35,792 bases of DNA from Candidatus Krumholzibacteriota bacterium (GCA_024275485.1 JAJRZA010000007.1:1-35792), one strand, 5' to 3'; shown: positions 7,174 through 22,545, numbered from the stretch's first letter. Notes: a model not told the origin generated them from the letters alone. Translations and numbers: made by a program.

Positions 7174-7204
7174 TTTCAACATCGGGATACTTTCAACATC
7201 GGGA
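7174..7204. repeat. 14-base direct repeat across the tyrA stop codon
   Basis: TTTCAACATCGGGA occurs at 7174-7187 and again at 7191-7204, a period of 17. The tyrA stop codon lies in the copy at 7191-7204, and the sorting-domain relic begins right after the other. The repeat probably marks the edge of a deletion or duplication. Confidence 0.85.
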
Positions 7205-8032
7205 GTTGCCGCCCTTTCGGATCTCCTGCACCATTTTCTCAAAACTTGCAGAATCAGACCTATCGGACCAACGCCCCAAATCCTCAAGGGCCTCTACCAA
7301 CGAATCGCGCACCGATCGTGCATGGGGATTCTCTTTTTGAATCGCCGCATAGGTGGCAGGGTCTCCATCAGTGATGATCTTGATCAAATCGGAAACCGGT
7401 CCGGACACCGGTGTAGCCAAGGCTTCCAGGGTTTCATTCGGCACTCCCGATCGTGCAGCAGCCCTTCCCATGGCCAGCAGGATGGCATGCACGCCGGCCT
7501 GCATCACTGCCGAAGCCCGATCATGATCTTCCGTGTCCATGGGCACAACTTTACAGCCCCAGGTTTTGATCATGGTCAAAAAATCCGCAGCGAGGGCACC
7601 CTCCTTGACCGGAATCACAGCCATGGTCAGGCCGGAAAATTCACCCCGGGGAGCGAACATGGGGTGCAAACTGAGATACTCCCCCGCGAAACCGGCCACC
7701 GCCGCCCGCTGAGTCACTTCTGTTTTGATGGAAAGAATGTCCAGGCAAAGGGAATCGGCTGCCAGCAGCCCGGCTGCATGGTCCAACCACCACAAGGCCG
7801 CCTTGGTTGGAACACAAAGCAAAACCAGGGAGGATTGGCTCAGCCACAAATCCGCCTCGGTGCTCGAAGAACTTTCAGGCACCAGGGCAAATTTGTCACC
7901 GGTTGGTGAATCATCAACCCCGCCGACCAGATCAATACCATGGATGGCCCAGCCATCAACGCGCAATTTTTCGGCAAACATTCGCCCAAAACCGCCATTC
8001 GCCCCAACAATGGTCGCCTTTTTCATTTTCAT
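7193..8032 (-). CDS. tyrA: Prephenate dehydrogenase (tyrosine biosynthesis)
   Basis: TyrA oxidatively decarboxylates prephenate to 4-hydroxyphenylpyruvate with NAD(P). The 279-residue protein opens with a Rossmann fold (KKATIVGANGGFGRMFAEKL, glycines at about 10-15). It has LVLLCVPTKAALWWL in the second strand region and the family signature LSLHPMFAP near residue 140; the helical C-terminal domain follows (QAGVHAILLAMGRA). There is no fused chorismate mutase and no C-terminal ACT domain, so chorismate mutase activity must come from elsewhere, most simply from the divergent fusion gene. ATG 8032 has AGGA six bases upstream. The last few residues (RKGGNSRC) run into a direct repeat and may not be the ancestral end. 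Arogenate as substrate cannot be excluded. Confidence 0.88.
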   Translation of the reverse strand: MKMKKATIVGANGGFGRMFAEKLRVDGWAIHGIDLVGGVDDSPTGDKFALVPESSSSTEADLWLSQSSLVLLCVPTKAALWWLDHAAGLLAADSLCLDILSIKTEVTQRAAVAGFAGEYLSLHPMFAPRGEFSGLTMAVIPVKEGALAADFLTMIKTWGCKVVPMDTEDHDRASAVMQAGVHAILLAMGRAAARSGVPNETLEALATPVSGPVSDLIKIITDGDPATYAAIQKENPHARSVRDSLVEALEDLGRWSDRSDSASFEKMVQEIRKGGNSRC

Positions 8033-8142
8033 CGTTTATCCTCTCCCAATCGCATCCTTGGACTGATTTGTCTTCAGTATACACCACCCGGCCCGAAACT
8101 GAACAAAGACCCTGAAATCGGTCCCTGTTTTTGAGGATGATC

Positions 8143-10164
8143 ATGAAAAAAATCGATGCCGCCCGACAAAATCTGGACCGACTGGACTCCCAGCTGCTGG
8201 ACATCCTGGCCAAACGCATCGAGATAGTGCGGGAAATTGGTGAGATCAAAGCCAACCAGGGCCTTCAGGTGCTGGATGTGCAACGCGAGCGCGCCCTGCT
8301 GACCAGCATTCTGGAGAAAGCCGAAAAGCGTCATTTGAGCCAACATTTCGTGGCCCAGATTTTCCGGCAAATGATCCGCTACGGACGCAACACCCAGGAG
8401 TCGATCCTCACTCCCCTGACCCATGAATCACCCGTGGTGCAATACCAGGGCACGCGCGGGGCATTCAGTTGGCTGGCCGCCCGCAAGTATTTTTCCGTCA
8501 GGCACACTGACTTCCGCATGGCTGGATCGCACACCTATCAGGAAGCCATCGATGCGGTCAGCAGTGGAACATCCGCCTACGCGGTGCTGCCCCTGGAAAA
8601 CAGTCTGGCCGGATCATTTCACGAGGTGATCGACTTGGTGGCCAAGAGTCCGTGCAGCATTGTGGGCGAAGAAATCATCCCCATCGACTTGTGCCTGGTG
8701 GCTTTGCCCGGGGCTCAGGTCAGCGACCTGGAAGTCATCTACAGTCACCCGGTTGTTCTGCAGCAATGCGCCCGTTTCCTGGGCACTCTCGACGGTGTTC
8801 AAACCACCGCCCACGAAGACACGGCGGCAGCGGCGGCCAAGGTTCAGGCAGACGGCCTCAAAAGCCAGGGCGCCATTGCCTCGCGCCACGCGGCGGAACT
8901 GTGCGACCTGGCCATTCTCAAGGAAGACATTTCCGGTGTCGGGTCCGACATAACACGTTTCGCCATCATTGCCGCCCAGCCGATTTCCGTGGACAACCAT
9001 TTGCCGGCAAAAACCAGCATCGTAGTGAACCTGCCCAACGAAGCGGGTGTGCTCGCAAGTATTGTCAACGCCTTCGGGCAACGTGGCATCAACATGGGAA
9101 AACTCGAATCCAGGCCCAGCGCCGACGGTTCAAGCCTGACCCGGTTCTATATCGAGTTGGACGGCAACGCCGAGAACCCGGTCCTGAAGGAAGCCGTGGA
9201 TTCCGTGCGCCAAATAGCACGCAGCCTACGGGTCCTTGGCTGCTATGTGGATCGGGCCAGACTGGAAAGCGAGTCGGATGATCTGCTGGGCAGGGCAGTG
9301 GACCCGGATCCCGATCCTTCGGCCGTTGAGCTCCATGTATTGCCGGGCAAGACTCCGGCCAGAAAACCCGGGCCCAAAAAACCCACCTTCAAATTCGATT
9401 CCCAACCCAGCGGAGAGCGCTCCATCGTGCAAGTGGGCCAAGCTGCTTTTGGGGACGGAAATTTCCATGTCATCGCCGGTCCCTGTGCGGTGGAAAACCC
9501 CACCCAGCTGGACCTGGCGGCCAGGGATGCCCGCGATGCCGGTGCCGTCGTCCTGCGTGGCGGTGTGTTCAAACCCCGCACCTCACCCTACTCTTTTCAG
9601 GGTCTGGGCTGGGAAGGACTGCGCCTCTTGCGTGAAGCCGGCGACAAGTACGATCTGCCCATCGTCACCGAGGTGATGGCCACCGAGCAGGTGGGCCGGG
9701 TGGCCGAGTTGGCCGACATGCTGCAAATAGGGGCTCGCAATATGCAGAATTTTGATCTGCTGCGGGAAGTTGGCCGCACCGACCGGCCGATTCTGCTCAA
9801 ACGAGGACTGATGGCCAGCATTGATGAGTTGTTGATGGCCGCGGAATACATCATGTCCCAGGGAAATTTCCAGGTGGTCCTGTGCGAACGGGGAATTCGT
9901 ACTTTTGAGACGGCCACCCGCTCGACCCTGGATTTGTCGGCTGTACCTGTCTTGCAAGAGCGCACACACCTGCCCATTTGCGTGGATCCAAGCCACGCAG
10001 CCGGACGCAAGGCCCTTGTGGCCCCGTTGGCCCGGGGGGCCCGTGCCGTTGGCGCAGACAGCATCATGGTGGAAATCCATCCAGACCCCGCCAACGCCCT
10101 TTGCGATGGTCCTCAGGCACTGTCTGCCCTGGAGTTGGCGAATTTGATCGCCGAACTGAAATAG
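8143..10164 (+). CDS. Chorismate mutase / prephenate dehydratase / ACT / DAHP synthase fusion
   Basis: The single 673-residue chain carries four modules. Residues 1-86 are an AroQ-type chorismate mutase (ARQNLDRLDSQLLDILAKR). Residues 98-276 are prephenate dehydratase, with QGTRGAFSWLAA, LPLENSLAGSFHEVIDL, SHPVVLQQC and the catalytic TRF at about 271-273. Residues 290-370 are an ACT domain with the phenylalanine-binding ESRP at about 322-325. After a proline- and lysine-rich linker (about 375-425), residues 426-673 are a class I-beta DAHP synthase (HVIAGPCAVEN, GGVFKPRTSPYSF, LLKRG, CVDPSHAAG, VEIHPDP). It would make DAHP from PEP and erythrose 4-phosphate, turn chorismate into prephenate, and prephenate into phenylpyruvate. 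All domains look intact. ATG 8143 is chosen because TGAGGA lies five bases upstream. It is divergent from tyrA. Confidence 0.93.
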   Translation: MKKIDAARQNLDRLDSQLLDILAKRIEIVREIGEIKANQGLQVLDVQRERALLTSILEKAEKRHLSQHFVAQIFRQMIRYGRNTQESILTPLTHESPVVQYQGTRGAFSWLAARKYFSVRHTDFRMAGSHTYQEAIDAVSSGTSAYAVLPLENSLAGSFHEVIDLVAKSPCSIVGEEIIPIDLCLVALPGAQVSDLEVIYSHPVVLQQCARFLGTLDGVQTTAHEDTAAAAAKVQADGLKSQGAIASRHAAELCDLAILKEDISGVGSDITRFAIIAAQPISVDNHLPAKTSIVVNLPNEAGVLASIVNAFGQRGINMGKLESRPSADGSSLTRFYIELDGNAENPVLKEAVDSVRQIARSLRVLGCYVDRARLESESDDLLGRAVDPDPDPSAVELHVLPGKTPARKPGPKKPTFKFDSQPSGERSIVQVGQAAFGDGNFHVIAGPCAVENPTQLDLAARDARDAGAVVLRGGVFKPRTSPYSFQGLGWEGLRLLREAGDKYDLPIVTEVMATEQVGRVAELADMLQIGARNMQNFDLLREVGRTDRPILLKRGLMASIDELLMAAEYIMSQGNFQVVLCERGIRTFETATRSTLDLSAVPVLQERTHLPICVDPSHAAGRKALVAPLARGARAVGADSIMVEIHPDPANALCDGPQALSALELANLIAELK

Positions 10165-13008: not shown

Positions 13009-14556
13009 TCAGGGAACGATAGTCACCCTTTGGGCCTGTTGACGATTTCCAGCCACCACCCGCACCAAATAAACCCCACCTGCAAGATGGTCGGGAAATT
13101 GCAGATAGTGGATTTGACCAGAGGCCAGATCCCGTCCCATGATGCCCACCCGATGCCCGCGCAGATCAAACAAGTCAACCGTGGCCGGAGGCAAACCATC
13201 CGGCAATTCCAAACGAATCGCTTGCCCGGAACCCAGCGCCAGGCCGGTCTGCAACCAACTCGATTCTCCGGCCGGCCCAACACCACTCAATGGTGATTCC
13301 AAGGCAAAGTCCAGCCGAACCCAGCCGTTGGCCACCGTAACGAGCCTGCTCTGGGATTCAAATCCTTCGCAACTGGCCGACACCCTGAAGGTACCATTGG
13401 TGGTGAGACGGTGGTACATGCCATGACCGGCTTCGGTCAGCCGGGGGCCGATCCCGGGTTGATGCATTTCATGGATAATAACCTCCGCCACCAAGGGCTC
13501 GCCATTGGCAAGGTTGGTCACCGAACCCCGCACACCCGGCCCTTCAAGCACACGATCAACCAGGGCCTCACTGCCCCTGGCCACCCTGGCGCCTATGGTG
13601 TCTACCATGGCGCCGGACCACCAGCAATGGTCGGCAATCTCCATGATGAAGGCCAGGGTTCCCGTCTCGCCATACACCCAGCACTGTTCCTTGGGAAGAG
13701 TGCTGTACGCGTAAATTTCGTTGTAGGGACTGCCATCCTCATTGATGGTCGCGGCAGCCCAAAGCTCGGCCACATCTTCAGCAACAGCGCTGTCCGGTCC
13801 CATGCCTCCGCCGCTGGTATCGAGCCAGGGCCAGAAAATGTAGTTGCGCCAGGAGATGGTAACAGGAGAGTGGTAGTCAACCACCACCACCGGTCGCTCC
13901 CGCAGGACAAAATGCCGGATGGCCGCGATTTCCGGTTCGCTGAAAGGGTACGGGCCTTTGTATTTCTGCGAAGCCGGGTCATCTTCGTCGTAGTCATCCC
14001 AGTTCCAGTCCCAGTTGCGATTCAAATCGACGCCGTCCCCGGGAAAATCAATCAGCTCATTGTGGTTGTTGTCGCGCATGGTTTTGCGCCATTCCAACCA
14101 ATTCACACCGCCGCTGAAATTGTGAAGATGGCCGTCAACATTGAGGATGGGCACATAGAACAATTCGAGGCTGTCCACCCGGGCGGTGACCGCTGGATCG
14201 ATGCCATAACCCTGGAGAAGGTTCTCGATGGTTTTCATGATGGCCGTGGTGCCGTTGGGTTCATTGGCATGCAGGGCACCGTGGAAAAGCAGGCGGGGAT
14301 CTTCATTTTCACCGGGGATCTGGTTGCAGATGCAGGCCATGGGGATGTCCGCCCGATCACCGCTGCGACCCAGGGTGGACTGGTGGAAAATATCCGGATA
14401 TTGGGTTTCCCAGGTGTCGAACTGGGCCAGAACCTGGTCGAGACGCCAGTAATTGGGGTCGGGTTGGTCGGCCTGCAGGAAAGTGGGAAAAATCAAGACC
14501 TGGAAAACTACTACCGTTAAAACGAGAAGCAAAATACGAAGGTCATGTTCTGACAA
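13009..14556 (-). CDS. Secreted M14 zinc carboxypeptidase with sorting domain
   Basis: This is a 515-residue exported metallopeptidase. A hydrophobic signal segment (RILLLVLTVVVFQVLIF) precedes the peptidase domain. All M14 active-site residues can be read: zinc ligands in GALHANE (His 96, Glu 99) and DYHSP (His 229), substrate arginine in DLNRNW (Arg 180), and the catalytic glutamate in FIMEIAD (Glu 306). Residues about 340-415 form a carboxypeptidase regulatory-like beta domain (GPGVRGSVTNLANGEPL). The last 80 residues are a FlgD-like sorting domain (TVDLFDLRGHRVG ... GGVYLVRVVAG). It should remove C-terminal residues from peptides outside the cell or on its surface. It lies upstream of the beta-helix lipoprotein on the same strand, about 135 bases apart. 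Confidence 0.92.
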   Translation of the reverse strand: MSEHDLRILLLVLTVVVFQVLIFPTFLQADQPDPNYWRLDQVLAQFDTWETQYPDIFHQSTLGRSGDRADIPMACICNQIPGENEDPRLLFHGALHANEPNGTTAIMKTIENLLQGYGIDPAVTARVDSLELFYVPILNVDGHLHNFSGGVNWLEWRKTMRDNNHNELIDFPGDGVDLNRNWDWNWDDYDEDDPASQKYKGPYPFSEPEIAAIRHFVLRERPVVVVDYHSPVTISWRNYIFWPWLDTSGGGMGPDSAVAEDVAELWAAATINEDGSPYNEIYAYSTLPKEQCWVYGETGTLAFIMEIADHCWWSGAMVDTIGARVARGSEALVDRVLEGPGVRGSVTNLANGEPLVAEVIIHEMHQPGIGPRLTEAGHGMYHRLTTNGTFRVSASCEGFESQSRLVTVANGWVRLDFALESPLSGVGPAGESSWLQTGLALGSGQAIRLELPDGLPPATVDLFDLRGHRVGIMGRDLASGQIHYLQFPDHLAGGVYLVRVVAGNRQQAQRVTIVP

Positions 14557-14655
14557 AATTATTGCTCCCTGGACGATTTCGGGATGGTTCAGTCAGTAGG
14601 GCGAAATTGACAACCAACACCTGATTATAACACATCAATCCCATGTATATTAAAA

Positions 14656-14682
14656 AACCCGGGCAGCAGTGCTGTCCGGGTT
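14656..14682 (-). terminator. Rho-independent terminator of the subtilase operon
   Basis: Minus-strand RNA forms AACCCGGACAGC paired with GCTGCCCGGGTT (one G-U pair, 3-nt loop), followed by a run of six U in all. It lies 35 bases after the subtilase stop at 14717-14719. Confidence 0.85.
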
Positions 14683-14716
14683 CAATATTGAATTCAATAC
14701 CCTCTTGCGCCGGGCA

Positions 14717-17467
14717 TCACCTGGTCAAAACAACCTTCCGTGTAATCACCTGATCCGCACTGCGCAACTGCACGAAATAAACACCCGCCGGCAAAATACG
14801 GCCGTCATCGTCACGACCATCAAAGACCACCGTCTGGCGACCGCTCCCACCACCACCCCACCGGAAACTCCTGACCCGATGGCCTCGTACATCGATAACC
14901 GTGAGATCGAATGAACGCCCGCTGTCCCGGGAAAAACTAACCTGCATATCACCCCGTGCCGGATTGGGGCTGATGTGGAGGTAGCCGACAGGATTGATGG
15001 TGGATTCCTGAACTGCCAGAGGGGAACCCGTGGCATCGACCATCAACAGGCCGACATTCCTGGCTCGGCCCGGTTGATCCGCAGAGTGCTCAAAGGGGAT
15101 CAGCAACGAAACACCATCTGCCGGCATGGCGCCATCAAGGTCGTAGAGCAGAACCCGCAACCTGGTCCCGACCTTGCCGGCAACTACCTCAACATCCGCT
15201 TCACAAATCACATCTTCAGGACGCCAGACAGCTCCGTCCAGATCCAGAGCGAATTGACCCGCTGAAATACCTGCCCCGGTAATATTGACCGGCTGCCACC
15301 AGCGACCGTCCTGCCAGGTGGCCCGACCGATCTCGTAGGCGACGGGAACGAAGGTCGGGGCGGAATAACCCGGTACATCGCTTTCCAGAATGAAAGCCAC
15401 TATGCGTGCCAGGTCCGAAGCATTCAACAGACCATCACCGTTGGGTGAAGGATAAACATCGCCCTGGATACGGGCGTCGCCGTCCAGGGGATTACCGTCA
15501 GGATCGACGATGTGGTTCACCAGCAGGACCAAATCCAGCACAGTGGTTTGGCCATCACCATTGACATCGCCGGTAGGCGCCGGACCAGGGGTCGAAATAG
15601 CAGCCATGGCCGCCTGGGCATCAACTTTTCCCGCTCCAAAACGATTGTTCCAAACCGCTCCCGTGTACACATCGACCGCTGCGGTGGCACGCAGGGCATT
15701 CTTGATCTGTCCTGCACTCAGGGTGCCGTTTTTTTCCAACAGCAAAGCCGCCACGCCGCAAACAAAAGGGCTGGCCATGCTGGTGCCCTGGCTCAAAAAA
15801 TACTGGCCGCTGGGGTCCAACCAGGCATCGCCAGGATAGTTGGTGGTGTCGGAACTGTATGGCGCAAACATCCCCAGACCAGGGGCGCTGACATCTGGTT
15901 TTTCCCGGCTGTCCCGGGTTGGCCCGATAGAGCTGAATGGTGCATGGTCACCTATATCGACAGCACCCCAGGTTGATCCGTATACATGAGTAAACCCGTC
16001 CAGGGCGACCCAACTCTGCCTTGTTTTATGGGCCGCCACGGTGATTGCCTGCTCGGCTGTCCCCGGCATGCCCACGGAATAGGATTGATCGCTGTTGGGA
16101 AAACCAGCGGTCATGGTTGCAGTCCCTTTCCAAGCGTGGGCTGTGCCCGTACCCCCATTGATTGAGATGGTCCAGTCGCCCACACCAGGGGTCGGCCCGC
16201 TGCGGTCGTCGATCTGAATGAGGATTTGTTTGTCGCCGTTGGCTGGATTGACTCCGCCGGTGGCGTTGTCGATAATCACGGTTCCATGACCGGTGTCCTC
16301 ACCGAACAAAGCACCTGAATTCACTGGACCGGTGGTTTCTCCCCCATAGGTCACCGCCACTGTTGGGTTGGCTGCACCATCCACCCAAATGGTCAGGATG
16401 ACATAGTCGTTGTTGGTGCCCGAATTGGCATCATAAACAGATATGTTGAAAAGAAGATTCGTGGCGGATGCCGGTCCGCTGTCGTGCAGATTCAATTCTC
16501 CTTCATTGCCCGCCGCGATGCAGAACACCACTGCGGTGCCGGACAAACCATCAATGATCTGCTCCTGGGCGCTTGTTCCATCATGGGCTCCCATGTGCCC
16601 ACCCAGCGACATGTTGATGGCCATGGGTTGGTCCAGGGCAGCAGCCTTGCCCGCCAGATAGTTGATGGCATCGATGGTTTTGTCTTCGGGAAAACCATGC
16701 AGCTGGTCGTCAAAGGCCTTGGCGAAAATTATATCAGCCTCGGGGGCCACACCGCTGTATAGCCCACTCGAAGCCAAACCGTTGCCCGCGGCAATTCCCG
16801 TCACATGGGTCCCGTGCCCGCTGAGGTCCACTTCGGTCAAACTGCCGGCGTTGATTTGGATTTCGTTGTATTCGGTACCGTAGTTGAAACCCGTGGGCGG
16901 CGTCCCGGAAACATATTGGTCCCAGATGAATTTGATGCGGGTATCGCCACCGGAAGTTTGAAAATCCGCGTGATTCCAGTCAATTCCCGAATCGACCACT
17001 CCCACTAGAACACCGGCACCGGTGTAGGCGGGCTCACCATTCCAAACCTGGTCCACCTTGCCGTCAACAGCGGCCAGATCCATCAAGGGATGCAACAAGT
17101 GGGCAGCCTCCACATGGTCAATGTCCCCATCGGCCTCCAACAGGTGAAGCGATGACAAAGGCAAGCGGGCCGTGACAAAATCACCCGTGCGGGATCCAAC
17201 CACCAAACCGGGAATTTCCGCCAGATCGGCCCAACCTCCACCCATATGCAGGATCACTCCCACACGGGGATCATCGGCATTTTGCGAAGCATCGATGGCC
17301 AGGAATTTTTCATAGCTCAAACCTGGGCCAGTGTTGTTTTTTGCTTGCAACAGACCCTTCAAAAGTGGGTCCATGGTTGCTGATAAAGCCGATCCTGCTG
17401 CGGCAACAATGACCAGGATCAAAACCGTCATCCAGGTGGTTTTCCGTTGTTCATATCCGGCAAACAT
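14717..17467 (-). CDS. Secreted subtilisin-like protease with dockerin and sorting domain
   Basis: The product is a 916-residue S8 serine protease with a full catalytic set: Asp in VGVVDSGIDW (about 159), His in GHGTHVTGIAAG (about 218), oxyanion Asn in AAGNEG (about 321) and Ser in GTSMASPF (about 563). A signal segment (MTVLILVIVAAAGSALSA) and an inhibitor-like propeptide precede it, and a beta-rich insert of about 120 residues lies between Asn and Ser. Residues 633-697 form a dockerin: GDVNGDGQTTVLDLVLLVNHI, interrupted by a short linker, and then SPNGDGLLNASDLARIVAFI, two calcium-loop/helix units. A FlgD-like sorting domain ends the chain (GVYFVQLRSADQVITRKVVL). ATG 17467 is chosen because GGGAG lies six bases upstream; an in-frame TTG at 17479 is less likely. 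It is the last gene of a four-gene unit that begins with a cohesin-like protein. Confidence 0.93.
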   Translation of the reverse strand: MFAGYEQRKTTWMTVLILVIVAAAGSALSATMDPLLKGLLQAKNNTGPGLSYEKFLAIDASQNADDPRVGVILHMGGGWADLAEIPGLVVGSRTGDFVTARLPLSSLHLLEADGDIDHVEAAHLLHPLMDLAAVDGKVDQVWNGEPAYTGAGVLVGVVDSGIDWNHADFQTSGGDTRIKFIWDQYVSGTPPTGFNYGTEYNEIQINAGSLTEVDLSGHGTHVTGIAAGNGLASSGLYSGVAPEADIIFAKAFDDQLHGFPEDKTIDAINYLAGKAAALDQPMAINMSLGGHMGAHDGTSAQEQIIDGLSGTAVVFCIAAGNEGELNLHDSGPASATNLLFNISVYDANSGTNNDYVILTIWVDGAANPTVAVTYGGETTGPVNSGALFGEDTGHGTVIIDNATGGVNPANGDKQILIQIDDRSGPTPGVGDWTISINGGTGTAHAWKGTATMTAGFPNSDQSYSVGMPGTAEQAITVAAHKTRQSWVALDGFTHVYGSTWGAVDIGDHAPFSSIGPTRDSREKPDVSAPGLGMFAPYSSDTTNYPGDAWLDPSGQYFLSQGTSMASPFVCGVAALLLEKNGTLSAGQIKNALRATAAVDVYTGAVWNNRFGAGKVDAQAAMAAISTPGPAPTGDVNGDGQTTVLDLVLLVNHIVDPDGNPLDGDARIQGDVYPSPNGDGLLNASDLARIVAFILESDVPGYSAPTFVPVAYEIGRATWQDGRWWQPVNITGAGISAGQFALDLDGAVWRPEDVICEADVEVVAGKVGTRLRVLLYDLDGAMPADGVSLLIPFEHSADQPGRARNVGLLMVDATGSPLAVQESTINPVGYLHISPNPARGDMQVSFSRDSGRSFDLTVIDVRGHRVRSFRWGGGGSGRQTVVFDGRDDDGRILPAGVYFVQLRSADQVITRKVVLTR

Positions 17468-17515
17468 ATGCACTCCCAAGGCTATTGAAGGCCCAATGCT
17501 ATTGAGGGCCCAAGC

Positions 17516-18118
17516 CTAGTTCAGACCCTGCGCCGGGCGCTGAAGGTCGGGTTTGTCGAGCTGGCGCAGATCATTTCTGGCCAGAATGTCGAAGATCACT
17601 TGGCTGGTTGCGATGAAGGTGACGATGTTGCCGTTGACGCTGCCGATCACGGCTCCCGAATCAGTCAGGGATTGATTCAGATTGGCGGCGCCCTCGTCAA
17701 AAGTACCAATGACCGAATATTGGGTTTCCTGCCAATGGTTCGACGCCATCCCGCCCAGGATGTCGTTGCGCAACCTGGGATCGATTTTGGTCAAGACCTT
17801 GTCGTCACCCCAAAGCACCAAACCCGTAAGACCGTCAACCTTGGCCAGGGCGGGCACCATGTCCCGGCTCACCAGGGCAAGCCTGGTGGGCCCGAATCGA
17901 CCCAGCTCCCGTCCGTCAGGTCCCAGGTTGGGCAGTTTGCCAAGAACACCATCAGAATGCAGGGACAACAACAGTCCGGAGTCTTCAGGCAGGGCGCTCA
18001 ACCTTTGCAGGGATTGCTGATCTGCCAGGCCGGTCAGTTCCGCCGGCAACTGGTCTTTGCAGCCGTGGAAAACCATCACCGTTCCCAAAAGAAGTAAAAT
18101 CTTTGCTTTGCTACTCAT
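17516..18118 (-). CDS. Small lipoprotein in the cohesin/subtilase operon
   Basis: The product is 200 residues long with a lipoprotein signal (MSSKAKILLLLGTVMVFHGC, Cys 20). The body has alternating strand and helix character (SGLLLSLHSDGVLGKL, TRLALVSRDMVPALAKV, GLVLWGDDKVLTKIDP, IGSVNGNIVTFIATSQVIF). No family is recognised. The frame is open upstream to 18301, but that part is the shadow of the neighbouring gene; ATG 18118 has a GGGGAC site and the lipoprotein signal. It begins 10 bases after the TPR lipoprotein and ends 48 bases before the subtilase start, so it is probably co-transcribed with both. It could be an anchor, chaperone or protease inhibitor for the exported proteins, but the sequence itself does not show this. 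Confidence 0.75.
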   Translation of the reverse strand: MSSKAKILLLLGTVMVFHGCKDQLPAELTGLADQQSLQRLSALPEDSGLLLSLHSDGVLGKLPNLGPDGRELGRFGPTRLALVSRDMVPALAKVDGLTGLVLWGDDKVLTKIDPRLRNDILGGMASNHWQETQYSVIGTFDEGAANLNQSLTDSGAVIGSVNGNIVTFIATSQVIFDILARNDLRQLDKPDLQRPAQGLN

Positions 18119-18128
18119 CAACCGTCCC

Positions 18129-18803
18129 CTATCCCGAGTATTGTTCTGAAAGTTGGTGCAAATGAGCCAGCACCGCTGCCACGAAATTGGTGTAGGTGGT
18201 CCCGCCAACCACCCAGGTGGATGGCACGTTTTCATCAATCCCACTGTCGTCGATGACATCCGCCTGATCCAGGGCCAGCTGAAAATTACCGGGAACGGCA
18301 TGGGCGAAAGCCCGAATCAACCGCAGATCCTTGGTATCGAAGGATATTTGATGTTCGAAAACGAAAGCGGGGTCAGCACTCAAAACCAGGCCGGCATTGG
18401 TGATGGCGGAAGCCAGATAGTCCCCGCCGGAGCCCAACTGGGCGGCAGCCAGACCAGCCATGACATAATTCTCATTTTCACCGGCAGCCTGGGCCAGATC
18501 GAAATTCACAATGCTGGAGTTCACTCCGAAAACCGACGTTGCCAACAACAGCTGGGACCAGCCTCGGCCCGCCATGGCTTCGCCATAACCCGAATCCAGA
18601 GCCAAAGCGGAGCCAAAATCATCCAAGGCATCGTTGTAGTTTTCGCTTTCGAAGAATCCCCAGGCCCGGGCTGAAAATTCGGCTGCGGTGTCCGGTGTAT
18701 CGGGGATAACCGGGGTATCATCATCACCAGAACTGCAGCCGAACAATCCTACCAGGGAAAGCAGGCCGATCATCATGATCTGTCGGACATTTCTTGAAAT
18801 CAT
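18129..18803 (-). CDS. TPR-repeat lipoprotein
   Basis: The 224-residue protein has a lipoprotein signal (MMIGLLSLVGLFGC, Cys 23) and a D/P-rich spacer (DDDTPVIPDTPDT). Residues about 40-80 match a TPR unit (AWGFFESENYNDALDDFGSALALDSGYGEAMAGRGWS), and weaker helical pairs follow (AAGENENYVMAGLAAAQLG, YLASAITNAGLVLSADPAF). TPR lipoproteins usually act as scaffolds for protein complexes at the inner face of the outer membrane. The gene sits 11 bases after the cohesin-like gene and 10 before the next lipoprotein, which makes an operon very likely. No enzyme motif is seen. Confidence 0.82.
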   Translation of the reverse strand: MISRNVRQIMMIGLLSLVGLFGCSSGDDDTPVIPDTPDTAAEFSARAWGFFESENYNDALDDFGSALALDSGYGEAMAGRGWSQLLLATSVFGVNSSIVNFDLAQAAGENENYVMAGLAAAQLGSGGDYLASAITNAGLVLSADPAFVFEHQISFDTKDLRLIRAFAHAVPGNFQLALDQADVIDDSGIDENVPSTWVVGGTTYTNFVAAVLAHLHQLSEQYSG

Positions 18804-18814
18804 GGTCTACCTTC

Positions 18815-19570
18815 CTAAGGCAACGCCAGGGTGACCTGGGCGTTGCCAGTGCCATGGCTGTTGGTATCTGATGATGAGACAATCAGTGAGGTGGACGATT
18901 CTGGCGCGAAATATTGTCCTTCGAAAACACCGGAGGCCAAAGCGTGCATGGTCACTGCGGTGGTACCGGCATTGACCGTGGGAAGATCACCGGAGCCGCC
19001 GGTTACGGTTACCAGGATGCGGACGATTCGGGTTCGGCCGGGGTTTTTCAGCACCGCAATGGCCAAAGTAGGCGGATTCTGGGGTGCCAGGACCGTCAAC
19101 ACCCCGGAGGCGCCGCCTCCCGGCAATGAGCCACCAAAAGGGTCTGAAAGGATGATGTCTTGAAATACCAGGCTGGTGGTATCATCGACATTTCCAAGCA
19201 TGGTGAACATCAACTCCGCCAAAACCCCCTCGTCCGAAGTCAGGCTGTCCGAATCGGCAAAGTACAGCACCACTCGCAGATGCCCCGCCGCCACAACCCG
19301 TCCTTCGGCAGTCATGCCGGTGCCTCGCCCGGTCACTGCCAAACTGCTGAAGGCAGTCACCTGGCTATCAAAAATAATATCCGCCTGGATGCCTCCTATG
19401 GTGTCCTCATTGGCCAAGGACAAAGTCACCGTGGCCGTATTGCCGGCAGGGGCGGAGGCTGCGGAAAGACTCAGGGTATTGCCGACAATCTGCCCGCTGG
19501 CGGGAATTGCCACTGTCAAAAAGCCGACCAGAATCGGCAAAGTTGGTATAATCCGTGTTTTCAAGCGCAT
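18815..19570 (-). CDS. Secreted cohesin-like protein
   Basis: The 251-residue protein has a signal peptide (MRLKTRIIPTLPILVGFLTV ... ASGQ). Residues about 30-155 read as a cohesin-type beta sandwich: LSLSAASAPAGNTATVTLSL, GGIQADIIFDSQVTAFSSLA, GHLRVVLYFADSD, VLAELMFTMLGNVDDTTSLV, DIILSDPFG. This order of strands is the pattern of cohesin domains, which bind dockerins. The C-terminal 90 residues form a second beta domain (RTRIVRILVTVTGGSGDLP ... VFEGQYFAPESSTSLIVSSS). No sorting domain is present. ATG 19570 is chosen because AGGA lies six bases upstream and it starts the signal peptide cleanly. It is the first gene of a unit whose last gene encodes a dockerin-bearing protease. The cohesin call is by pattern and could be a related carbohydrate-binding-type sandwich. 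Confidence 0.72.
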   Translation of the reverse strand: MRLKTRIIPTLPILVGFLTVAIPASGQIVGNTLSLSAASAPAGNTATVTLSLANEDTIGGIQADIIFDSQVTAFSSLAVTGRGTGMTAEGRVVAAGHLRVVLYFADSDSLTSDEGVLAELMFTMLGNVDDTTSLVFQDIILSDPFGGSLPGGGASGVLTVLAPQNPPTLAIAVLKNPGRTRIVRILVTVTGGSGDLPTVNAGTTAVTMHALASGVFEGQYFAPESSTSLIVSSSDTNSHGTGNAQVTLALP

Positions 19571-19805
19571 TGTTATCCTGTCGGGTTCAGGTTTTCGAAA
19601 CCTGGGCATCCAGACCAAAATTCGGCTCCCAGGGGACACTACTTGAGCGGTTATCCCATGTCGTGTATTATCTAAACCATTGAATCACGCCCACTTCAGT
19701 GGGAGCGAAATCTGCCAGTCGGCCTGACCATGCCCCGAAAAATGGAAATTCGCAAGAAGATTGAGTTTCCGGCCGACCAGTTTTCTACATTTCCCTAGGA
19801 GTTCC

Positions 19806-20924
19806 ATGCTTTCGCTCATCGCCATCGCCAAAAACGAAGCAGCCGACATGGCCGCCTTCCTGGGCCACCACCAGGACCTCTTCGACGAACTCATCGTCAT
19901 CGATACCGGCAGCACCGACCAAACCGCCACCATCGCCGCCGACAACGGTGCCCTGGTCTTTCCCTTCACCTGGTGCGACGATTTTTCCGCCGCCCGAAAC
20001 TTCTCCCTGGAAAAAGCTACCAAAAAATGGGCCCTCTGCCTTGATATAGACGAAATCATCGCCCAAGCCGATTTTGACCGTCTGCGCAAACTGCTCCAGG
20101 ACAAACCCACCTGCTTCATGCTTCCCCAATGGAACTACTACGACGACGCTCGCCACCAGGAATGGCAACCAGTTCGTGGTCTGTATCCCTAACTTGAAAA
20201 AAATCACCCTGGTTTTTTTCTCGCCCACCAGTACAGGTTGTTTCCCACCGGCTGCGGCTTGAATTGGCAAGGCCGGGTGCATGAAGACCTTTCTCCATCC
20301 TTGAAAACCACTGATCTGCCCACCAAAATCCTGGATATCCCCGTCCATCATTATGGCTACGTAAAAAGCGAGGACCATAACCTGGATCGCAATGAACTGT
20401 ACGGTCGATTGGTTCGGAAAAAAATTGACGATGACCCCGACGATTGGAAGGCCAACCTGGAGCTTGCCTACATTCTGGTCCAGGAAGGCCGGGGTCGTAA
20501 AGCCATTCCGGTGCTGGAAAAGTTGAATGAAATTGGAGATAAAAGCCCGGTGCTGAGTCGCGCCCAGGCCATGTTGGCCAAACTGTATGTGGCGGATGAC
20601 CGGCCGGACGAAGCCATCGCCTTGCTGCATCAAACCGTCACTCAAAACCCGGGATGGCTCTTTGGCTGGACCGACCTGATCAAACTCCTGATCGACGGAC
20701 AACACTGGGAGCAGGCCGAATCGGCGTTCACCGTCACCCGCGATTTTTTCCCTGAAGAACCGCTGCTTATGAAACTGGAGTGCCAGCTCATGATCAAAAC
20801 ACGCCGCATCGTGGAAGCAATTCCCATGGCCCGGCGCATCAGCAAAATGGTTCCCGGGATGCAGGAATACGACCGCATTGCCGACCAATGCGAAGCCTTG
20901 GCCCGCAAGGAAGGGCTACTCTGA
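19806..20924 (+). pseudogene. Family 2 glycosyltransferase with TPR region, split by an in-frame TAA
   Basis: A single frame runs from ATG 19806 (AGGAG four bases upstream) to TGA 20924 and is interrupted only by TAA at 20190-20192. The first 128 codons give a WaaE-like GT2 domain: LSLIAIAKNEAADMAAFL, ELIVIDTGSTDQT, DDFSAARNFSLE and the metal motif LDIDE. Past the stop the same frame continues with LEKNHPGFFLAHQYRLFPTG and GRVHEDLSPS, as expected for this family, then TPR-like helices (ANLELAYILVQEGRGRKAIP, AMLAKLYVADDRPDEAIALL). The break falls in the middle of the catalytic domain, so the upstream piece alone should be inactive. A change of GAA to TAA would explain it. Recent nonsense mutation, readthrough or a sequence error are all possible. 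Confidence 0.85.
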
Positions 20925-20925
20925 G

Positions 20926-22416
20926 CTATTCGGTGTATCTGGCAGTTACTTCCTGAATACCCGCCGTGCAGGCAGCGCAGAACTTCTTCAGCCCCTTGGT
21001 GAACATGATGCAATCGAGCTGCGACCGGTACATCCCCTGCGAAACATAACCAGCACCCTCGAAAGCACCCACCTGTCCGAAGAATTCACTGTCTTGGAAC
21101 CACAAATCAACCTTTTCCTGATGCGACTTCGACCAGGCCTCGCCTGCGGCAATGGCCGCTGCGATTTCAGCATCGCCCGTATCTTTGTTCATCAATTCGG
21201 CGATGCGTTTGTTTTGCTCGACTCGACCACTCATGTACTCGGCATCCATGGCGTCGTACTCTGCCTTTTTCCAAGGCGTTGGCAGGGTGGTTCCGGCAGT
21301 GACCTGGTCGGCCCACTTGAGATCATCCGCATCAATCAGCGCGGTAATATTTCGCTCATGGGGTTCCCTGCCCGCCGGATAAAAATCGTTGTAGGAAGTG
21401 CTTGAGGAGTAATATTCATCCGCCAAACCGGCAAAACTGTGACCAAACTCGTGCAGAAATACAAATTCACTCCACTGGTTGTCGCTGGTGAAGGTGCAGA
21501 ACAGATTGTAGATGCCACCGCCGCCATAACGTTCGTGGTTGACCATGATGTACAAAACATCGTAGGGCGCATTGGCGGCCACATCGCGGATAACGCGGTT
21601 GTCTTCGGTCAGCATATAACGTTCGGACCCCAGTGAATCGAAGGTGCTGCCCAAGGCCGTGTTCAAGTGCACCCCACGGCTAGGTTCATCGCAACCACTC
21701 TGCTGCGAAGGCTTGAGCACGCCCCAGATGTTGAATTTGTCGGCCATGCTCTTGTAGGGCTCGTAACCCAGCATGAGATCGGCAAACCGCTGCACGTCTT
21801 TCCGGAATTTTCCTTCCTCGGCGGCCGTGTAGCCATCACCGAGAATGGCAACATCCACCTGCCCGTGAGGATCGCCGTGATAGGCCGCCTTCATCACGAT
21901 CACGTCATCATCGAGAGGGTCTTTTCGAATCAGATGCCAATCAGGATCGATCTTTACCCGATAGATTTCTTTCATGGTCATGTCGCGCTGGCGAACTTCC
22001 AGGGCAAACTCGATGGTCCGCCGAGGAAAAGGTATACGAGCTGATTCATGATAGGTCCGGCGAATTCCATCGGCAGCCGGCCCGGTGGTTTTCCATTCAC
22101 CGTAATAGCTGTCGAATCCCTTGGAATAAAGCAGATCACCATTTTGGGCGTCATAGACTTTCTGGTAATAGCGGCCCAGATCAAGATCATCCAGCAGGTG
22201 CAGCCGGCTACCCGACCAGATCCCCTGTCGCCATACCTGATCCAGTGAGATGATTTCCTCGTCCGAATTTCCAGTGTGGTAATAGTCGATGCGCAGGGTC
22301 TCATCGAGGAAATGATGGCTGAAAACCGGGTCGGCGGTGGCTGGACTTCCAAAAATCATGATCAGGCCAAGAATGAAGGTCAAACTCAGGGTTGGTGCCA
22401 TTTGGCGGGTTTCCAC
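20926..22416 (-). CDS. Secreted M64-family metallopeptidase (IgA peptidase-like)
   Basis: The 496-residue product has a signal peptide (MAPTLSLTFILGLIMIFGSPATA). An N-terminal beta domain (about 30-165) matches the layout of M64 peptidases. The catalytic domain starts near VDVAILGDGYTAAEEGKF and holds the zinc site HEFGHSFAGLADEY (His 322, Glu 323, His 326; Asp-Glu at 333-334). M64 members cleave proteins outside the cell; the IgA specificity of the founding member need not apply. The start is set at GTG 22416 because a perfect GAGGAG lies six bases upstream; ATG 22446 is in frame but has only a weak site. No sorting domain is present; cysteines near the end (FCAAC) may form a disulfide. It is convergent with the glycosyltransferase gene, with one base between the stops. 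Confidence 0.9.
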   Translation of the reverse strand: METRQMAPTLSLTFILGLIMIFGSPATADPVFSHHFLDETLRIDYYHTGNSDEEIISLDQVWRQGIWSGSRLHLLDDLDLGRYYQKVYDAQNGDLLYSKGFDSYYGEWKTTGPAADGIRRTYHESARIPFPRRTIEFALEVRQRDMTMKEIYRVKIDPDWHLIRKDPLDDDVIVMKAAYHGDPHGQVDVAILGDGYTAAEEGKFRKDVQRFADLMLGYEPYKSMADKFNIWGVLKPSQQSGCDEPSRGVHLNTALGSTFDSLGSERYMLTEDNRVIRDVAANAPYDVLYIMVNHERYGGGGIYNLFCTFTSDNQWSEFVFLHEFGHSFAGLADEYYSSSTSYNDFYPAGREPHERNITALIDADDLKWADQVTAGTTLPTPWKKAEYDAMDAEYMSGRVEQNKRIAELMNKDTGDAEIAAAIAAGEAWSKSHQEKVDLWFQDSEFFGQVGAFEGAGYVSQGMYRSQLDCIMFTKGLKKFCAACTAGIQEVTARYTE

Positions 22417-22545
22417 GAAGCGCTCCTCACGTTGGTTGATATTCATCTTCGATTAATAACCTACTCCGGGCTCCCAAGACAAGGTCATCTCCCCAATATC
22501 ATCCTCCTGGGGGGATGAAACATGAAAGACCACATTCAACAAAAC

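Follow-up and report, generated by a model that had tools for sequence, protein, structure and literature searches.

A four-gene operon from a bacterium of the Candidatus Krumholzibacteriota appears to encode a dedicated secreted-protease module, in which a cohesin protein with a single binding site would capture a dockerin-tagged subtilase, while a lipoprotein mimicking a subtilase propeptide would restrain that enzyme. The operon lies on a stretch of 35,792 nucleotides (GCA_024275485.1 JAJRZA010000007.1:1-35792; hereafter the window), which is the entire contig C93 of a 3.98 Mb genome, 96% complete, whose nearest named relatives are the metagenome-assembled genomes of Candidatus Krumholzibacteriia. 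On the basis of sequence and structure prediction, we put the probability of this reading at about 0.52. The features concerned are the following (Ig, immunoglobulin; T9SS, type IX secretion system).

18815..19570, minus strand: cohesin protein, 251 amino acids, with a Sec signal peptide, a single cohesin domain and a C-terminal Ig-like domain (Pfam, PDB cohesins, alignment of 8 relatives)
19088..19480, minus strand: cohesin domain, residues about 31-161 (Pfam, alignment, PDB profile matches)
18818..19078, minus strand: Ig-like C-terminal domain of the cohesin protein, conserved and present in G012 (alignment, relatives)
18129..18803, minus strand: TPR lipoprotein, 224 amino acids, lipobox LFGC (TPR models matching relatives, alignment)
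17516..18118, minus strand: small lipoprotein, 200 amino acids, invariant Cys20, two predicted propeptide-like (I9-type) units (AlphaFold2 model, Foldseek)
17549..17728, minus strand: C-terminal propeptide-like unit of the small lipoprotein, residues about 131-190 (AlphaFold2 model, Foldseek, profile comparison)
14717..17467, minus strand: subtilase, 916 amino acids, with signal peptide, propeptide, S8 catalytic domain, dockerin, cohesin-fold domain and T9SS-type tail (profiles, model)
17087..17266, minus strand: subtilase propeptide core, residues about 68-127, in register with the C-terminal unit of the small lipoprotein
15581..17020, minus strand: S8 catalytic domain, Asp159/His218/Ser563 (Pfam, alignment)
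15368..15571, minus strand: type I dockerin, residues 633-700, two calcium-loop repeats with a short insertion in the second (Pfam, alignment, PDB profile matches)
14972..15355, minus strand: predicted cohesin-fold domain within the subtilase (X), residues about 705-832 (Foldseek, profile comparison)
14720..14974, minus strand: FlgD-like/T9SS type A-type C-terminal tail of the subtilase (TIGR04183)
about 14651..14680, minus strand: intrinsic terminator 3' of the subtilase (hairpin and T-run in the sequence, hairpin fold computed)

The genes are separated by gaps of 11, 10 and 48 bases, and this layout, with its terminator, agrees in coordinates and spacing with that given in an earlier note on the same DNA. 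Absent from that note were the cohesin-fold domain and the T9SS-type tail that follow the dockerin, the Ig-like domain that follows the cohesin, and the propeptide-like fold of the small lipoprotein. The four genes form a real unit, because their order is conserved across genomes. Relatives were examined in two sets, first 38 genomes and then 80 of the class; two genera, and a single genome of a third, carry the cohesin gene. The order cohesin, TPR lipoprotein, small lipoprotein, subtilase is intact in 7 genomes of 2 genera (G000, G002, G003, G004, G005, G014 and G072). In G001, the cohesin, TPR and subtilase genes are together and the small lipoprotein gene is on a separate contig, near a glycosyltransferase gene related to the one that stands beside the operon in the window. 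The latter, a family 2 glycosyltransferase gene on the plus strand (19761-20924), has a C-terminal part that looks TPR-like by eye, corresponds over its full length to the G001 homologue (L038:2987-4135, 61% identity), and contains a single in-frame stop at 20190-20192.

The earlier note had called a cohesin-like protein and a dockerin, and the profile searches bore out the two assignments. The cohesin scored 33.4 bits against PF00963 (residues 32-139; curated cut-off 24.1), with up to 47.5 bits in relatives, and a profile of the orthologue alignment matched the solved cohesins 6kg8 and 2vn5 over the whole domain at E-values of 5e-4 to 1.5e-3. It should be noted that the profile was needed, as the single cohesin-protein sequence gave only chance-level matches in the PDB; a plasmid search with the same protein returned no match. 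In G005, G014 and G021 the protein is 630-740 amino acids long, and ahead of the cohesin it has a Big_7 Ig region together with an N-terminal segment that lacks a Pfam match. The dockerin matched PF00404 with 26.5 bits (cut-off 22.9; residues 633-693), and its orthologue profile matched solved dockerins at an E-value of 2e-5. Its first F-hand repeat (loop DxNxDGxxxxxD) is canonical; the second reads NGDG..NASD, with an insertion in the window protein and without it in G005 and G014. The helices TVLD..LLVNHI and ADLARIV.FIL are strongly conserved.

In Clostridium thermocellum, cohesin residue Asp39 contacts the dockerin (PMC5772552). The equation of this residue with the invariant Asp64 of the present cohesin was considered and dropped, since on our reading the PDB alignments place Gln62, and not Asp64, opposite Asp39.

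The protease itself is also as previously called: the subtilase matched PF00082 with 153.6 bits, all eight orthologues keep the triad Asp159, His218 and Ser563 and the oxyanion Asn, and the best relatives of its catalytic domain among solved structures include CspB (4i0w_B).

That cohesin and dockerin belong together is suggested by their genomic association. The 38 relatives hold 39 dockerins, of which 12 lie within 5 kb of a cohesin in another open reading frame (ORF), against about 0.18 expected by chance, and after orthologous operons are collapsed at least five independent loci remain. In every genome with the present cohesin domain (9/9), a dockerin protein is encoded no more than about 5 kb away. 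The source genome holds one Pfam dockerin and two cohesins, each in a protein with one cohesin, in keeping with the earlier proposal of a dedicated pair and not a cellulosome. Two genomes of one genus, G021 and G012, are both without the subtilase and the small lipoprotein. The dockerin neighbour of the cohesin in G021 is a different protein (LamG/He_PIG-Doc-tail) in convergent orientation; in G012 no dockerin is nearby, and the gene retains its N-terminal and Ig parts, the cohesin domain having been lost in frame. The comparison draws on few genomes, and genes can go missing from drafts.

The second cohesin of the genome (L021:7658-8467, G000:C57) has a FlgD/T9SS-type tail and directly follows a gene for a 1826-amino-acid DUF7948/SBBP/fn3 protein (L021:2177-7654); this cohesin might receive the same dockerin at the cell surface. 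Elsewhere in the class, two-cohesin proteins with Big_2 domains and T9SS-type tails adjoin dockerin proteins at L043 (G030:C27), L042 (G029:C1024) and L046 (G014:C125), and some of these dockerin proteins hold cohesin-like domains themselves, forming small scaffold clusters.

The C-terminal tail of the subtilase matched TIGR04183 with 33.3 bits (cut-off 23). Tails of this type are generic in the genome, where a first look gave 149 candidates and all of the 30 that were scored matched; seven PorV-family proteins lie above the cut-off, and a search for SprA_N found no match in the genome, nor in the control genomes. Because the subtilase thus has its own surface or secretion tail, it need not depend on the cohesin alone for anchoring. 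Of the surface-attached proteolytic complex proposed in the earlier note, the protease cargo is supported. A second subtilase fragment with the same dockerin, X and tail arrangement, 49% identical, begins contig G004:C666 (L050:3-1526), and is followed by a gene for a lipoprotein-like protein of 529 amino acids and one for a short secreted protein.

Lipobox-type signals were seen by eye in both the TPR lipoprotein and the small lipoprotein, and the Pfam lipoprotein site model matched two of eight relatives of the latter. The TPR match is weak in the window protein and clear in relatives (best E-value 4.8e-6). G012 keeps the TPR lipoprotein alongside the Ig-like domain though cohesin and subtilase are gone, and because the two stay together there, they probably make up the base that carries the cohesin.

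A different role is suggested for the small lipoprotein, whose C-terminal half was first seen by eye to resemble the subtilase's own propeptide. Its AlphaFold2 model has a mean pLDDT (predicted local distance difference test) of 82.9, with a block at 92 or above over residues 101-190. The C-terminal unit shows the order beta-alpha-beta-beta-alpha-beta, which is that of subtilase propeptides; the N-terminal unit is similar and shorter, and the reading of two units is based on the strand and helix order of the model, as profile comparison of the N-terminal unit with the propeptide gave no meaningful alignment length. The top Foldseek match was the CspB propeptide (probability 1.00, TM score 0.62 on the target). 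Within the top 50 PDB matches, those with a probability of at least 0.95 (4i0w_A, 3whi_B, 3cnq_P, 3afg_A/B, 1spb_P and 2z58_B) are all subtilase propeptides or pro-subtilases, and the propeptides matched include those of CspB, BPN', subtilisin E and Tk-subtilisin. An invariant Pro terminates both the propeptide core of the subtilase and the C-terminal unit of the lipoprotein. In addition, the lipoprotein is present in exactly the eight genomes of the class that have the subtilase, a count whose weight is limited by the kinship of these genomes. The earlier note suggested that both lipoproteins may anchor or assemble the complex; the small lipoprotein looks instead like a trans-acting propeptide-like regulator, either inhibitor or chaperone, which is likelier than an anchor, and we hold this with fair confidence.

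Taken together, the operon may work as follows. The cohesin protein would bind the dockerin of the subtilase in a calcium-dependent manner and hold the enzyme in place, its own Ig-like domain and the TPR lipoprotein determining where. The small lipoprotein, tethered to the outer membrane, would serve in trans as a second propeptide: bound to the catalytic domain, it would maintain the fold of the protease and keep it inactive up to its exit from the envelope. The T9SS-type tail would export or anchor the enzyme. We suggest only tentatively, and at rather less than even odds, the full sequence of events, namely that a membrane-tethered two-unit propeptide mimic restrains the subtilase in trans across the Gram-negative envelope and that the dedicated one-site cohesin then receives it, an arrangement that would serve the delivery and control of a single protease and not the crowding of enzymes.

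Several observations weigh against the proposed module. The cohesin protein has no lipobox, no other visible anchor and no T9SS tail, although it would have to meet an exported enzyme. G021 retains the cohesin without the subtilase, and co-occurrence tracks phylogeny, so that the genomes are not each independent evidence. As to the small lipoprotein, the Foldseek E-values are weak (0.01-0.3), and the comparison of its C-terminal half with the subtilase propeptide, although in register, is marginal (P 0.0065-0.013; 2 of 150 shuffles reach the score). No Pfam inhibitor or propeptide model matched it in eight relatives at E-values up to 10; because of this, the protein is named propeptide-like and is not filed under I9. 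Finally, the cohesin-fold domain of the subtilase itself could be the partner of the dockerin.

The first alternative concerns the small lipoprotein alone, and is compatible with the cohesin-dockerin pairing and with the other readings: the protein would not regulate the subtilase, and its ferredoxin-like fold would have another role in the envelope, for instance as a chaperone or an anchor for the cohesin protein. Folds of this kind are widespread, the Foldseek matches include ACT and RRM domains at lower probability, and the marginal sequence comparison fits this possibility as well. However, the lipoprotein tracks the subtilase and not the cohesin, being absent from G021 and G012 and present in G001 though detached from the operon, and we consider this alternative somewhat unlikely.

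The second alternative gives the dockerin a partner within its own chain. The post-catalytic region of the subtilase, modelled from eight orthologues (mean pLDDT 79.6), is such that the enzyme carries a predicted cohesin-fold domain of its own immediately after the dockerin. The best PDB match of the tail region was the cohesin-FN3 module of Clostridium perfringens GH84C (2w1n, E-value 5.7e-8), X also matched the cohesin-like module 2jh2 (target TM score 0.61-0.65), and the score of its profile comparison with the cohesin of the operon was reached by none of 150 column shuffles. The dockerin could then bind X within the chain, giving a rigid stalk, or between chains, giving a homopolymer, and the separate cohesin would have another ligand. 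X is the main rival partner, because dockerins beside cohesin-like domains with tails recur in the class (L043:6017-8212, L045:6451-7827, L047:4198-7638, and one ORF of G016). On the other hand, X has an invariant Ala at the position of the invariant Asp on strand 3 of the separate cohesin, though the invariant Gln is kept, and a pairing of dockerin with X leaves unexplained why the separate cohesin gene is retained with the dockerin subtilase and lost in G012, where the subtilase is missing. Overall, this pairing appears unlikely.

It is also conceivable, yet improbable, that both domains are ordinary, unpaired spacers of secreted proteins, one a beta-sandwich and the other a pair of calcium loops. 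Outside cellulosomes, no partner is known for many domains that resemble cohesins or dockerins, and several genomes of the class carry just one of the two; such spacers, however, would not be expected to adjoin each other far above chance, nor to conserve the dockerin helices so strongly. Membership of a large cellulosome-like multi-enzyme complex, for which the two-cohesin proteins with several dockerin neighbours in class relatives (G030 C27) might speak, is hardly credible and is rejected on copy number, as the genome shows no multi-cohesin scaffoldin, one cohesin site per scaffold and the single Pfam dockerin, and the operon no glycoside hydrolase.

Further peptidase genes on the minus strand flank the region of the operon. 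Upstream is an M64 (IgA peptidase family) gene (20926-22446), and downstream a secreted M14 peptidase gene (13009-14556), which G002 and G003 also have next to their operons. Because of these neighbours, the target of the operon is probably extracellular protein. Farther away in the window, a plus-strand gene (8131-10164) encodes a 677-amino-acid protein in which chorismate mutase, prephenate dehydratase, ACT and DAHP synthase domains are fused; its neighbour (7193-8032) codes for a prephenate dehydrogenase.

A literature search found no paper on this operon or on cohesins in Krumholzibacteriota. Among the closest known cases is the cellulosome-like system of Candidatus Stygibacter (Cloacimonadota), with dockerins on S8 and C25 peptidases and a T9SS-anchored scaffoldin (PMC8542988). 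It shares with the present operon a Gram-negative candidate phylum, a dockerin-bearing peptidase and a T9SS-type C-terminal domain for surface attachment, but it is built on one 3,755-amino-acid multi-cohesin scaffoldin and several enzymes, whereas here a single operon supplies one cohesin site and one dockerin subtilase, together with a propeptide-like lipoprotein. C. thermocellum has an S8 protease with a double dockerin, dDoc_0689, for which attachment to the cell surface through a scaffoldin cohesin has been proposed (PMC12484212, a review); the 'Serine protease' entries 8x39 and 8x3a among our dockerin-profile matches are probably this protein. It too is a subtilase bearing dockerin modules, but in a Gram-positive bacterium with a full cellulosome, and it has no T9SS tail. 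Cohesin-dockerin complexes outside cellulose degradation, the amylosome and the mucinolysome, some with dockerin-bearing peptidases (PMC9112005, PMC12997984), are likewise Gram-positive, and multi-enzyme. C. perfringens GH84C (2w1n, 2jh2) resembles the subtilase tail in having a cohesin-fold module followed by an FN3-like module, but is a glycoside hydrolase in which the enzyme itself carries the cohesin.

Stand-alone propeptide-like inhibitors of subtilases are known as well, among them fungal POIA1 and other MEROPS I9 proteins. Another is the Plasmodium SUB1 inhibitor (PMC6993865). In these cases also a separate gene supplies a propeptide fold acting on a subtilase; what differs here is a bacterial two-unit lipoprotein in one operon with its presumed target, for which inhibition is suggested by the fold. 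Dockerin-bearing S8 peptidases and separate propeptide-like inhibitors being already known, what is new is the combination of a one-to-one pairing encoded by a single operon with an enzyme that has a further cohesin fold of its own and with a lipoprotein that would mimic a propeptide.

Cohesin-dockerin pairs are known mostly from multi-enzyme complexes acting on plant fibre. If the present reading is true, a one-to-one, protease-centred pair carried by an operon in an uncultured phylum would represent a simpler use of this interaction. This claim and that of the propeptide mimic are both open to test with purified proteins, and the latter, if correct, would address the question of how a Gram-negative cell moves an active subtilase through its own envelope.

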